Source: a virus
Length of the DNA: 30,643 nucleotides
Reading direction: 5' to 3' (one strand)
IMG/VR virus record: IMGVR_UViG_3300021091_000279
Location: 1-30,643 of that record
The notes below the pieces were generated by a model, which was given only the letters and a program-made list of their open reading frames with translations, was not told where the DNA came from and did no database searches. The position numbers were made by a program, and so were the translations under genes. Shown one piece after another: positions 26,638 through 30,643 of the stretch. Position 1 is the first letter of the stretch. Each line of letters begins with the position of its first letter.

Positions 26638-27489
26638 TTAAGAGAGCAAAGCCGCCCATGTTGCTTTATCAACTTCTCCAGTTTCAGCAAGGGATTTGGA
26701 TTTTTGAAATTCTTTTACAATGTTTTGAGTTTTTGGACCAAAATCACCATCTTCTTTACAAACAAACCCATGTTTAGTCAATAGCCTTTGTGCTTCTTTA
26801 GTTAATTTACCTTTATTCCCAGCCCTTATAATTTGTTTTTGATCTAGAACGGATTGCTCTACAACAACGGGGGCACTATCTGCCGCAGCTTTTGCTTCAG
26901 CTGCGGCTTTTTGCTCCGCTGGTGTTCCAAACATACTCGCTGGTTTTGGATTAAGCACAAGCCAATCCTTTACCGCTTGTGGAATTTGATCACCCTCTGT
27001 ATAGCGTATATGCCAGGGTTCTGATGGAACCACTTCCCAGCTCCAGCCAAATTTACGCACATTGGCAATCAACCATTTTAAGCGCTTATTTTCTCCCGCT
27101 GAGTGAATATCTACGGCAATACCTAAATTATGATTAGATTTTCCAGGTGTCGCCATCATAGCCATACCTTTTTTAAGGTACCAAGTTTTACCCTCAAATG
27201 TTTTTGTACTTTGATTTGCAATTGGTTCTAGTTGATATCTAGACAAAAACCCAGCTTTTTGGCTGTCATAACTTCTATAAGTATCTCCAGCACTTGTGGG
27301 TTTTAATTCAACACCGTCTGCTTTGGCAGCATCCACCATCGCATTCCATGCATCTGCCGCAAGATAGTGTAATTGACCGCCTTGTGGGATTTTACGGAGA
27401 AGCGATGGGTGGAGCTTGCCAGGTTCTACATTTTTTAGACTAATTGGTAATTTAATCGGAACAACAATGTCCCATTCGACTTTGCCCAT
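26638..27489 (-). CDS. Endolysin: VanY-type D-alanyl-D-alanine carboxypeptidase plus peptidoglycan-binding domain
   Basis: A 283-residue protein. Residues 40-165 form a VanY (LAS) metallopeptidase with all key residues visible: TYRSYDSQ (R72), the SNHNLGIAVD motif (zinc ligands H120 and D127), and SEPWHIRY (E157 general base, H160 third ligand). These enzymes cut D-Ala-containing peptide bonds of peptidoglycan. After an Ala/Lys-rich linker (about 188-210), residues 215-283 are a PG_binding_1 domain (LTKEAQRLLTKHGF..., DGDFGPKTQNIVKEFQKSKSL... VDKATWAAL). There is no signal peptide, so export depends on a holin, and a holin-like gene lies 19 bp upstream. AGAGG lies 5 nt before the ATG. Confidence 0.9.
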   Translation of the reverse strand: MGKVEWDIVVPIKLPISLKNVEPGKLHPSLLRKIPQGGQLHYLAADAWNAMVDAAKADGVELKPTSAGDTYRSYDSQKAGFLSRYQLEPIANQSTKTFEGKTWYLKKGMAMMATPGKSNHNLGIAVDIHSAGENKRLKWLIANVRKFGWSWEVVPSEPWHIRYTEGDQIPQAVKDWLVLNPKPASMFGTPAEQKAAAEAKAAADSAPVVVEQSVLDQKQIIRAGNKGKLTKEAQRLLTKHGFVCKEDGDFGPKTQNIVKEFQKSKSLAETGEVDKATWAALLS

Positions 27490-27508: not shown

Positions 27509-27706
27509 TTATTTACTGCGACCAAAAGCTGAATCATTTGGATTCAACCATCGCATAAGAACTGGGACAAGAGCTGCAAGAGCCGCCGCGCCAATATCTT
27601 TTGGATTTGTGTTCCCCGTCATATATACCGCAAGACCCGCACCAATGCAGGACCGAGCATAAGACGCTAACATCTTCTTATTATTCTCACTTAACAAACT
27701 AGACAT
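27509..27706 (-). CDS. Putative holin
   Basis: A 65-residue protein with two hydrophobic helices (about 15-31, YARSCIGAGLAVYMTG; about 37-52, IGAAALAALVPVLMRWL) and the ending LNPNDSAFGR, which I recognise from small membrane proteins beside endolysins in aquatic and actinobacterial phages. The short polar loop (NTNPKD) and charged ends fit a class II holin with both termini inside. The neighbour downstream is the endolysin. It has the best ribosome binding site of the region (AGGAGG, 7 nt before ATG) and its own promoter at 27743-27771. The function is inferred from topology and position. Confidence 0.65.
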   Translation of the reverse strand: MSSLLSENNKKMLASYARSCIGAGLAVYMTGNTNPKDIGAAALAALVPVLMRWLNPNDSAFGRSK

Positions 27707-27771: not shown

Positions 27772-27966
27772 TCAATCAGTATCGTTTTTAAATATTTGAT
27801 GAATATAATGAACTACGCAGGCAGTTATGGTTGAAATTAAAGCAATTGTTTGTGTAACGCCAGAAAGAGTATAATACACAACCACACTACCGGCAATCGT
27901 AAATGCAATGCCGGCAGTGATATCCCATAGTTTTTTAACAAAACCCAGCCAATCAAATTTTTTCAT
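27772..27966 (-). CDS. Holin-like protein from an internal in-frame start
   Basis: ATG 27966 lies in frame with the 893-codon ORF and is preceded by AAGGAGG (27981-27975) with an ideal 8-nt spacer. It encodes 64 residues: a basic start (MKKFDWLGFVKKL), two hydrophobic helices (about 16-34 and 39-56) with a short polar turn, and a polar tail (IFKNDTD). This is a class II holin layout. The ORF just before it codes for linker-like acidic and Gly-rich sequence. The simplest reading is a holin gene whose upstream stop codon was lost or never existed, so that the large protein reads through into it. Both products may be made. The second holin-like gene follows after 65 bp. Confidence 0.65.
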   Translation of the reverse strand: MKKFDWLGFVKKLWDITAGIAFTIAGSVVVYYTLSGVTQTIALISTITACVVHYIHQIFKNDTD

Positions 27967-30453
27967 TTCCACACCCTCCTTAATATAATACTCGTAAATG
28001 CTATTTTTAGCATAATCTGTATCGTCATCATCCCCGCCAGATATTTCACCAGCCATCTCTTCCTCTTCTTCTTTTCTTGCAGCGTCATTTGGGCCACTGC
28101 TTGGCCCACCAGAACCCCCACCAGAACCACCAGAAGAAGAACCTCCGGACAAAGCGTTTGCGGCAACAGTCGCTACAGCAGCAGCTGCGGCAATAAGTAA
28201 TCTGCGATCACCAGTATCTATCGTTGAACCAACAGCAACGTAATTATCAAACACGCCTTCAAATATATTTATTTCTTCTTCAAATGCTTCTTTAACTTCT
28301 ACCGGAGCTTCCTGAATTGCTTCTACAATCGCAGCCCCATCTTCTGGAGATACTTCTGATACAGAGATTGAGCTAAATACCTCTGACGCTTGTTCGCCGT
28401 CAATGCTCTGCAACACCTTTGCACTTGTGGCGAGTTCTGTTGCCTGTTCTGAATCAATTCCGCCTTCTTGTTCAATAATTAAAGTAACTACTTCAGCAAC
28501 CTGTTCTTTAGAAATAGTTTCTGATTCAAGGGTGGTTACAACTGCTTCAAACTTTTCAGCATCAAGTTCTGTTTCTAAAACAGCCGTAAATGTCTCAATC
28601 AAAACTTCATCAGTTACTTCTTTGTCAAAAATGGCATCAAGAACGGTTTCTAATTTTTCGGCATCAAGTTCACCCTGCAAGACTTCCTTGGCTAATTCAA
28701 TTGTTTCTTCATCAGATAGATCATCATTGAATACATCATCAAGGACTTCTGCTAATTCCTCTTTGGATAAATCGGTTTCCAAAAGGTCATCTAAAACCTC
28801 TTTTATTTCTTCAATAGAAGCATCTTCTGGCAGTACATTGGATTCATCTGATGGGTTGCTAGAATCAATGTATGTGGTTTCTGGACTTACTTCTTCTTCC
28901 TCTTCGGGTTCTGTGGTCTCTTCTTCAACTGGGGGTAGAGTTGTTTCTACTGGTACCGGCTCTACTGGGATTGTCGTGGACGGCTCTTCAGTTTCAGGTG
29001 ATGTTTCTTCAGGAAGCGTCGTTGTCGTGGATTCTTCTGGAATTGTTGTTGTTGACTCTTGTGGTGGTGTGGTATCTACTGGCTGTGGAGAGGTCCCAGA
29101 GGGGCTTGTAGGGCTTCCTGAGCCATTTTCTACAGGGGGTGTGGGGGTTGGCGGGGTTGTCGTATTTATAAAAACAGTGGTGGTCGTGCTACTCGTGGTG
29201 GTCGTGCTACTTGTGGTGGTTGTGCTGCTTGTGGTGGTCGTGCTACTTGTGGTGGTTGTAGAGGAAGTCGTTGTTGTGGATGAAGTGGAAGTTGTTGAAG
29301 CCCCAGCCGTAGTCGTTGGGGCAACTGTTGGGGCTGTTGAATTATTTGATGGCACTCCTCCAAATGATGAGCAGGTTCCGGATACACATTTTTGGGTTGA
29401 GCCATTTGTATTATCAATAATTAATAGCGGAGACAATGCGGTATCGCCAATATTGAAAACAGCAAATCCTAATTTGTAAATACCAGTAACTGAAACTTCA
29501 TATGTTGATGTCTGCCAGCCAGTCGCGCCATATGAATTTGTTGAATAATCTCCTGTTCCTGGATTTGTAAAACCAAGTAGTGCATATGATCTAACATAAT
29601 TGTTAACTGTAATAACTGGAGTCGGGGCTACAGTTGTTGTAGGAGAAATAGTTGTTGTTGGGGCAAGAGTTGTTGTAGAAGCAACTGTCGTTGTAGAAGC
29701 AACAGTTGTTGTTGACTCAACAGTTGTTGTAGATTCAGGTATTGTTGTGGTAGTTGATGGAAGAGTAGTTGTACTACTTGTGGTAGTAGTTGTTGGGGTA
29801 GTTGCAGAAACAAAAATTAGTGATGTTATTGAACCGTCATTAAAAGGTACATAGTCTGTCCCCAAATAATTCCAAGACATCGTGTATGTAGTATCAGCTG
29901 TTAATTCAACTTCTCTTGTAATCCACGCAGCGTCTGTTGGGTTGGAGCTTCCTCCAAGACCGGCTTGAGCGTCTGCTGTAAGAATTGCTTTGATCGCTGT
30001 TTCATCACTGCTTGAAAGACCAAGAGCAGTTCTTGCTTGAGTAAATGTTTGCTCATTTTTTGGTTGCAAAGCAACAGCGTATCCGCCAGTGTTTGGTTGA
30101 AATGTCCAACTGCCCGCGGCAACAGCTGGGGCGTAATAAGGGTTTGGCGCACCGTTCTTTAGAGGATTCCCGATGGCTTGATGAGAAGGGTGATTGAATG
30201 TTCTTGACCCGCTAAAAATAGTTACACCAGTACCACCACCATTAATAGTTGTAGCATTTAAACTTCCGGTTTGATTGCCTTTTGACCAACCAGTAAAAGC
30301 ATTATCTTCAAAACCGGCATTAGATATTGGGGTTGGTTCTTCGTCTGCTTGGGCTTGTTGTATAGGAATAACAAGTCCCATAAATGCCAATGCAAATGGC
30401 AGCCATGATATTTTTTGCTTAAAAGCAAAACGAATTTTATTTTTAACACTCAT
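27772..30453 (-). CDS. Secreted mucin-like surface protein with helical repeats and a C-terminal two-helix membrane domain
   Basis: An 893-residue ORF. Residues 1-37 form a signal peptide (basic start, hydrophobic core, QAQA-D cleavage). Residues 43-210 look like a beta-sandwich of carbohydrate-binding type (NAGFEDNAFTGW... TADTTYTMSWNYLG). Thr-rich linker 1 (about 212-275) is followed by a second beta domain (about 285-365) and Thr/Ser linker 2 (375-430). A Pro/Thr/Glu-rich stretch follows, then about nine acidic helical repeats of roughly 18 residues (540-735; xLSxEELAEVLDDVF). After DNYVAVGSTIDTGDRRLLIAA come an Ala-rich hydrophobic stretch, a Gly/Ser linker, an acidic cluster, and two membrane helices (about 842-890). 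Similar architectures occur in exported proteins of aquatic Actinobacteria, so capture from a host is likely. Function unknown. The start follows the ferredoxin stop by one base; the ribosome binding site is weak. Confidence 0.7.
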   Translation of the reverse strand: MSVKNKIRFAFKQKISWLPFALAFMGLVIPIQQAQADEEPTPISNAGFEDNAFTGWSKGNQTGSLNATTINGGGTGVTIFSGSRTFNHPSHQAIGNPLKNGAPNPYYAPAVAAGSWTFQPNTGGYAVALQPKNEQTFTQARTALGLSSSDETAIKAILTADAQAGLGGSSNPTDAAWITREVELTADTTYTMSWNYLGTDYVPFNDGSITSLIFVSATTPTTTTTSSTTTLPSTTTTIPESTTTVESTTTVASTTTVASTTTLAPTTTISPTTTVAPTPVITVNNYVRSYALLGFTNPGTGDYSTNSYGATGWQTSTYEVSVTGIYKLGFAVFNIGDTALSPLLIIDNTNGSTQKCVSGTCSSFGGVPSNNSTAPTVAPTTTAGASTTSTSSTTTTSSTTTTSSTTTTSSTTTTSSTTTTSSTTTTVFINTTTPPTPTPPVENGSGSPTSPSGTSPQPVDTTPPQESTTTIPEESTTTTLPEETSPETEEPSTTIPVEPVPVETTLPPVEEETTEPEEEEEVSPETTYIDSSNPSDESNVLPEDASIEEIKEVLDDLLETDLSKEELAEVLDDVFNDDLSDEETIELAKEVLQGELDAEKLETVLDAIFDKEVTDEVLIETFTAVLETELDAEKFEAVVTTLESETISKEQVAEVVTLIIEQEGGIDSEQATELATSAKVLQSIDGEQASEVFSSISVSEVSPEDGAAIVEAIQEAPVEVKEAFEEEINIFEGVFDNYVAVGSTIDTGDRRLLIAAAAAVATVAANALSGGSSSGGSGGGSGGPSSGPNDAARKEEEEEMAGEISGGDDDDTDYAKNSIYEYYIKEGVEMKKFDWLGFVKKLWDITAGIAFTIAGSVVVYYTLSGVTQTIALISTITACVVHYIHQIFKNDTD
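27975..27981 (-). promoter_or_regulatory. Strong internal Shine-Dalgarno (AAGGAGG)
   Basis: A seven-base match to the anti-Shine-Dalgarno, 8 nt before ATG 27966 and inside the 893-codon ORF. It is stronger than the site at that ORF's own start (AGAAGAA), which decides the call of an internal start. Confidence 0.7.
28290..28830 (-). repeat. Degenerate ~18-residue acidic helical repeats
   Basis: Protein-level repeats of the type (L/I/V)(S/D/T)xE(E/K/Q)(L/A)xEV(L/V)xxxxxx(E/D), about nine copies, with visible DNA similarity (TCTAATTTTTCGGCATCAAG near 28650 against CAAACTTTTCAGCATCAAG near 28548). Probably an elongated helical solenoid. Confidence 0.7.
29176..29275 (-). repeat. 18-bp tandem repeats encoding Thr/Ser (TTTSST) units
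   Basis: About five copies of a unit like GTGGTGGTCGTGCTACTT (plus strand), giving a repetitive TTTTSS linker. The unit is divisible by three, so changes in copy number keep the frame. Confidence 0.85.
29640..29790 (-). repeat. Thr-rich linker repeats (STTTVA units)
   Basis: Repeats around GTTGTTGTAGAAGCAAC (plus strand), roughly 18-24 bp, encoding TTTVAS/TTTVES and TTTTLP/TTTTIP units between the two beta domains. Confidence 0.8.
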
Positions 30454-30454
30454 A

Positions 30455-30643
30455 TTATTCTTCTATAAAAATACATTCACCTGGGCAATCTTCTGCCGCT
30501 TCGATTACATCAGCCAGCCTGTCGTCTGCGAAAGAAGCGACTCCATTTCCGCCTTCGGGGTTGCCTCGTGATTTGGAAAATATTTTTCCATTCTCTTGCA
30601 CATATGCCAGACCATCCTCCAGCATTATGAAAACATCTGGGGC
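30455..30643 (-). CDS. Ferredoxin (3' part; runs off the right edge)
   Basis: Sixty-two codons are visible, ending at TAA 30457-30455. The reading is APDVFIMLEDGLAYVQENGK..., then ...DDRLADVIEAAEDCPGECIFIEE. It fits the C-terminal two thirds of small actinobacterial ferredoxins with one 3Fe-4S or 4Fe-4S cluster: an APxVFxxxxDGxAxV strand, then AAxxCPxxCI with the last cluster cysteine. The N-terminal cysteines would lie to the right of the window. Ferredoxins carry electrons to P450s, desaturases or reductases in the cytoplasm. It lies one base before the start of the mucin-like gene, so the two are probably co-transcribed and translationally coupled. A ferredoxin in a late phage operon is unusual. 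Confidence 0.75.
   Translation of the reverse strand, partial: APDVFIMLEDGLAYVQENGKIFSKSRGNPEGGNGVASFADDRLADVIEAAEDCPGECIFIEE

Follow-up and report, generated by a model that had tools for sequence, protein, structure and literature searches.

Dual-start holins, such as S105/S107 of phage lambda and S68/S71 of phage 21, are made from two in-frame starts as pairs of products that differ by 2-3 residues. The locus described here likewise has two in-frame starts and products with a common membrane domain, a helical hairpin that would resemble the two-helix S21 layout. However, its starts lie 829 codons apart rather than a few, the 829 residues by which its products differ include a signal peptide and outer domains, and its hairpin is a holin-like candidate only. 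A lysis-region gene that is nested in frame, has its own ribosome-binding site and gives rise to two products is known from the actinobacteriophage Ms6, where lysA241 is embedded in frame in lysA behind a consensus site (PMC3111421), and internal starts are known for endolysins (PMC12203907). Both Ms6 products are soluble endolysins, whereas the long product here is a secreted surface protein that includes a membrane hairpin. In M13/f1, an internal in-frame start in gene I yields the gene XI product gp11, a short membrane protein without the large domain of the long form, which pairs with gp1 in a complex (PMC5408679); these are, by contrast, assembly proteins with a cytoplasmic large domain and an unrelated sequence. 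The proposed holin-major capsid fusion gp9 of EpicDab (PMC9671378) also combines a two-helix holin-like domain and an unrelated phage protein in a single frame, and an ATG lies close to where they meet. There, the holin-like part is N-terminal, its release by cleavage is proposed and the case is single, whereas here it is C-terminal, apparently initiated separately, and conserved in many phages.

Actinomycetia phage DSL-LC01 carries a fused member of the same family (WJZ48438.1, OQ999401), annotated as a "hypothetical protein". In contrast to the locus described here, its tail start lies 6 codons further downstream and has its own Shine-Dalgarno sequence (-8.3 kcal/mol in the relative L247, which has the same junction), and the endolysin gene does not adjoin. 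The full combination, a hairpin nested at the end of a secreted lectin-type protein, was not found in the open-access literature searched, and the literature on freshwater actinophages yielded nothing relevant on holins or lectins.

The window, that is, the whole stretch of 30,643 bases analysed, is an IMG/VR virus contig in which a 4092-aa ORF encodes the tape measure protein. The initial annotation described an 893-codon ORF with an in-frame ATG at 27966, and both are as stated: no stop occurs before or at this ATG (Met830) and the frame is continuous. The parts of the locus are as follows.

27772..30453, minus strand: long ORF of 893 aa, an exported modular protein with a membrane-hairpin C-terminus; the open frame is kept in all close fused relatives.
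30343..30453, minus strand: predicted signal peptide, residues 1-37, read by eye, as were the N-terminal signal peptides family-wide.
29812..30342, minus strand: N-terminal module, residues 38-214, from alignment; Pfam assigns PA14, L-type lectin or other domains to relatives at the same position.
28864..29811, minus strand: Thr/Ser-rich linkers around a second module, residues 215-530, 47% S+T.
28201..28863, minus strand: acidic helical-repeat region, residues 531-751, ending in a conserved EVKExFEEEIN..FDxY..GS..D.G.RR block.
28144..28200, minus strand: membrane segment 1, residues 752-770, hydropathy 1.85.
27967..28143, minus strand: Gly/Ser linker and acidic segment with the end NSIYEYYIKEGVE, residues 771-829, conserved across the family.
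27975..27981, minus strand: internal Shine-Dalgarno AAGGAGG, with an 8-nt spacer to ATG 27966.
27772..27966, minus strand: nested gene, the 64-aa two-helix tail from Met830 to the end, with helices at residues 6-33 and 37-60; its start is conserved, and it is a separate gene in L066, L128, L222 and L258 and stands alone in L034.

The proposed layout of a large exported protein holds for the predicted signal peptide, the Thr-rich linkers and the helical repeats. The beta structure suggested for the N-terminal module of the window's own ORF was not confirmed by structure prediction (pLDDT 40), although relatives carry PA14 (L003, 7.5e-12) or an L-type lectin (L184, 7e-44) at this position. "Mucin-like" is a loose term, the Thr-rich stretches being linkers between swappable modules of carbohydrate-binding type. 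As for the membrane anchor, hydropathy of the 893-aa ORF places two segments in the tail, as proposed, and adds one at about residues 752-770 that had been missed. The outer modules are swapped among the close relatives L003, L006, L067, L184, L066 and L031 over a conserved C-terminus, a pattern like that of fast-changing recognition proteins.

The AAGGAGG sequence at 27981-27975, with its 8-nt spacer, pairs with the anti-Shine-Dalgarno of a presumed 16S 3' end at -11.6 kcal/mol. The genes of the window contain 151 internal ATGs in frame, and only ATG 27966 pairs at -8 or below. The start of the long ORF itself is weak (-1.5 kcal/mol). A ferredoxin-like gene upstream ends a single base ahead of it, and initiation there may therefore rely on translational coupling. 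The ferredoxin-like gene (30455-30643) is incomplete at the window edge and ends AEDCPGECIFIEE. In L107 (1203-5558) the strengths are reversed relative to the window, with a strong long start (-12.5) and a weak tail start (-5.9).

Searches of viral contigs with the tail yielded 36, then 40 and 254 matching stretches, of which the best 80 of the 254 were used; all but one of the window's close relatives are fused in frame. In 24 dereplicated members, the two Shine-Dalgarno codons are AAG for 20/20 Lys and GAG for 23/23 Glu; over the rest of these genes the shares are 26% and 25%. The Glu in the spacer, by contrast, has 14 GAA and 10 GAG codons. A set of 42 dereplicated close relatives behaves in the same way: Met is found at the tail start in 42/42, G is the last base of the two Shine-Dalgarno codons in 37/40 and 38/38 cases, whereas control codons have it in about 28%, and the spacer Glu is encoded by 28 GAA and 14 GAG. 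A two-state model on the tree, fitted to 18 control columns, gives P values of about 1e-5 and 2e-5 for the two columns, which are rough because codon bias differs by column (control column -9 is 86% G). Mean pairing in close relatives is -11.7, against -6.9 for synonymous-random sequences. The signal persists although the residues that encode it vary (KEG, EEG, REG, EGG), and some relatives have the junctions EEGTMERKF or QEGTMKRTF, where the Shine-Dalgarno is GAGGAGG or CAGGAGG, 5 nt ahead of the ATG.

This comparison confirms, at the level of sequence, that the Shine-Dalgarno and ATG at 27966 are kept by evolution and not by chance. A chance Shine-Dalgarno is ruled out by its rarity among internal ATGs, by the conservation of G-ending codons and by pairing above synonymous expectation. 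As in other in-frame nested genes, the start lies in the frame of the longer ORF with no stop between them and has a ribosome-binding site of its own, conserved beyond protein constraint. The internal start is very probably used.

A profile of the 133 residues preceding the tail finds at least 287 stretches and thus delineates a large family. Among the matches listed there are 110 distinct tails, of which 103 are fused, 6 split and 1 stands alone. The tree of tails, built on 63 columns and with many forks unresolved, separates two clades with full support. The window's clade holds 84 of the distinct tails listed: 76 fused with the start, 6 split with the start, one without a Shine-Dalgarno (L008, the sole member of the clade to have lost it) and one standing alone; 82/84 have a start at -7 or below, including all 6 that are split. 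The 26 tails of the sister clade are all fused, with starts mostly between -5.4 and -6.7, a level (GGAG with ATG or TTG) that about 1 in 10 in-frame ATGs reaches by chance. The tail is therefore an ordinary C-terminal domain as well, given that every sister-clade member is fused and none has more than a weak start. A single contig of 267 kb (IMGVR_UViG_3300042868_009074) contains two copies of the gene, L240 and L241.

In the split relatives (L066/L067, L128, L222/L223/L225 and L258) the outer protein stops at the same position, and a separate gene, preceded by a Shine-Dalgarno of its own, encodes the tail. The separation consists of a TAATG overlap in L066/L067 and of a single in-frame stop in L128 (GAGGAGTAAGTTATG). 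The split state requires at least 2 changes on the tree, of which well-supported branches force only one. In L034, a 58-aa copy of the tail stands alone in another context without a surface protein. Within the window's clade, the start of the tail is, judging from these sequences, the constant element and the stop the variable one. Because the split relatives retain the same start, a free product is supported, and the simplest reading would be that selection in this clade keeps the free tail, with read-through from the outer protein usual but dispensable.

The occurrence of the two parts as separate genes in six relatives might suggest that two adjacent genes were joined here by assembly or sequencing errors. 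The chance of this is negligible: 103/110 distinct loci listed, on independent contigs, are fused with conserved linker sequence, and so many independent open frames refute an error. A read error that removed a stop is likewise excluded, since the frame is open in every close fused relative. Comparison of homologues had been set beforehand as the test of the two-product proposal; the parts are not always separated by a stop, and most relatives are fused.

The same distribution bears on whether the fusion protein alone matters, with the tail as its anchor and AAGGAGG as a pause site or a chance result of codon choice that helps insertion into the membrane. The sister clade, fused with weak start signals, would fit such an arrangement, as would the tail-less, Arg-rich ending of L114, L126 and L138, which indicates that the C-terminus is free to vary. 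In these three (about 5001-5370 in L114) the ending RKSAAKRQRRARQRARVK takes the place of the membrane hairpin. A pause, however, requires no ATG at a fixed distance, yet the Met is invariant in the 42 close relatives; in the six split relatives a true gene begins at this very signal; and the strength of the Shine-Dalgarno is far beyond synonymous expectation. Fusion protein without a functional short product is thus very improbable. Comparative evidence strongly supports the proposal of two products from one frame, and both are very likely made.

AlphaFold2 predicts for the 64-residue tail the two-helix structure that had been proposed, a helical hairpin of residues 6-33 and 37-60 with a tight LSGxTQ turn (mean pLDDT 87.8). 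The sequence has a Lys-rich N-terminus ahead of helix 1 and a short uncharged turn. Like class II holins, the tail is small and has two predicted membrane helices, and to this extent the description as holin-like stands; no holin family matches it significantly (phrog_608 at E = 0.047), Pfam gives none, and separate holin-like genes adjoin. Tails match phrog_29041 (55 positions, function not known) in L128 (4e-8) and L034 (7e-4). A fold search gave no match at E <= 0.001. As a helical hairpin is unspecific, only the top match is informative: a free 58-aa protein of an uncultured phage in BFVD, with 49% identity (E = 0.03). Among named phages, tblastn with the tail found DSL-LC01 alone, the other matches being at chance level. 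In genome_contigs the anchor region has a single match, which lies on a MAG contig; at that sensitivity the family looks specific to phages, and a host origin of the anchor region was rejected on the same count. In L211 the gene lies on a gammaproteobacterial MAG contig, which is probably a phage contig binned to the wrong organism. The hosts of the family are most likely actinobacteria, a link drawn from DSL-LC01, whose own host was predicted.

Two genes follow the tail in the window.

27509..27706, minus strand: small membrane-type gene of 65 aa, a holin candidate with a good Shine-Dalgarno, downstream of the tail.
26638..27489, minus strand: endolysin with a VanY peptidase and a peptidoglycan-binding domain (PG_binding), from domain matches.

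An endolysin gene lies within 1.5 kb downstream in 33/38 members of the window's subclade, so that there, as in the window, the tail has the neighbour expected of a class II holin, and within 1.5 kb in 23/26 of the sister clade. In subclade IIb, a VanY endolysin was found within 1.5 kb in 0/45 testable rows, and many members have a phrog_443-like holin gene immediately downstream. Gene order supports a lysis region for the window's subclade and the sister clade, as far as sequence comparison goes. The hairpin need not be the holin, since a separate holin-like gene (phrog_443 match) adjoins in many relatives. In L029 (8475-8726) an 84-aa membrane-type protein matches both phrog_26427 (3e-23), whose nuclease label looks wrong, and the phrog_443 holin (5e-7). 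In L066 (6182-6400) a third small membrane-type gene, of 73 aa and without a family match, overlaps the split tail gene at its end.

The reading we prefer, with reasonable though limited confidence, is that one cistron gives two membrane proteins, the hairpin likely being a small class II holin-like protein and the long form its surface-anchored partner. From the start at 30453, ribosomes would produce the modular surface protein, exported and with an anchor consisting, in this order, of the membrane segment, an acidic stretch in the cytoplasm and the helical hairpin. Ribosomes that start at 27966, behind a much stronger Shine-Dalgarno, would yield just the 64-residue hairpin, and probably more of it than of the long form. 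As one membrane segment, placed by hydropathy, separates the exported part from the hairpin, the hairpin would have the same orientation in both products, presumably N-in and C-in, and the two could therefore co-assemble; the Arg-Arg ahead of membrane segment 1 is awkward for a side that faces outwards. Within the lysis region the free hairpin would be a candidate holin-like protein of class II, paired with the surface-anchored long form, and the odds lean slightly towards a role of its own in lysis.

The neighbourhood data also bear on the main alternative, a less likely one, in which both products are made and the short one has a structural role alongside the surface protein instead of acting in lysis, its free hairpins packing with that of the long form and building or spreading the anchor, as in M13 gp1/gp11. 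The absence of an adjoining VanY endolysin from subclade IIb would agree with it, as would the family-wide role of the tail as a normal C-terminal domain, also where the internal start is not conserved, and gp1/gp11 is a real precedent (PMC5408679). Against it stand the copy in L034, in a context without a surface protein, and the position next to the endolysin gene, which holds for most members of both the window's subclade and the sister clade.

That the long form restrains the free hairpin, as the initial annotation had suggested, we consider rather unlikely. In its fuller version, which seems less likely again, the long form would be a surface-sensing antiholin, its lectin-like outer modules binding outside and its shared hairpin delaying hole formation by the free hairpin or by a neighbouring holin. 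The hairpin is identical in both products, the outer modules are exchanged between relatives, the longer product of classic dual-start holins is the antiholin (PMC13056207) and T4 RI senses superinfection from the periplasm (PMC8385771). The argument is, however, purely one of analogy, and the outer protein of the split relatives, having lost the hairpin, could not act through it. That the outer part, through the nested hairpin that it shares, might either advance or delay lysis according to what its lectin-type modules bind outside is more speculative still.

Returning to the preferred reading of two membrane proteins from one cistron, in-frame nested genes and dual-start holins are already known, and each ingredient has a precedent. 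What is not described in the papers searched is a large secreted surface protein of lectin type that ends in a nested membrane hairpin, an arrangement conserved at no fewer than 76 distinct fused loci and known also in split and stand-alone forms. The naturally split versions allow a test by comparison. Gene callers tend to report the long ORF alone, as happened in DSL-LC01, and would thus miss the small product across a family of abundant aquatic phages. Control by the outer part, if true, would be an extreme form of dual-start lysis control, exerted by a surface protein with lectin-type modules. From their sequences, many uncultured aquatic phages appear to make two proteins from one frame, a surface protein and its free two-helix tail.
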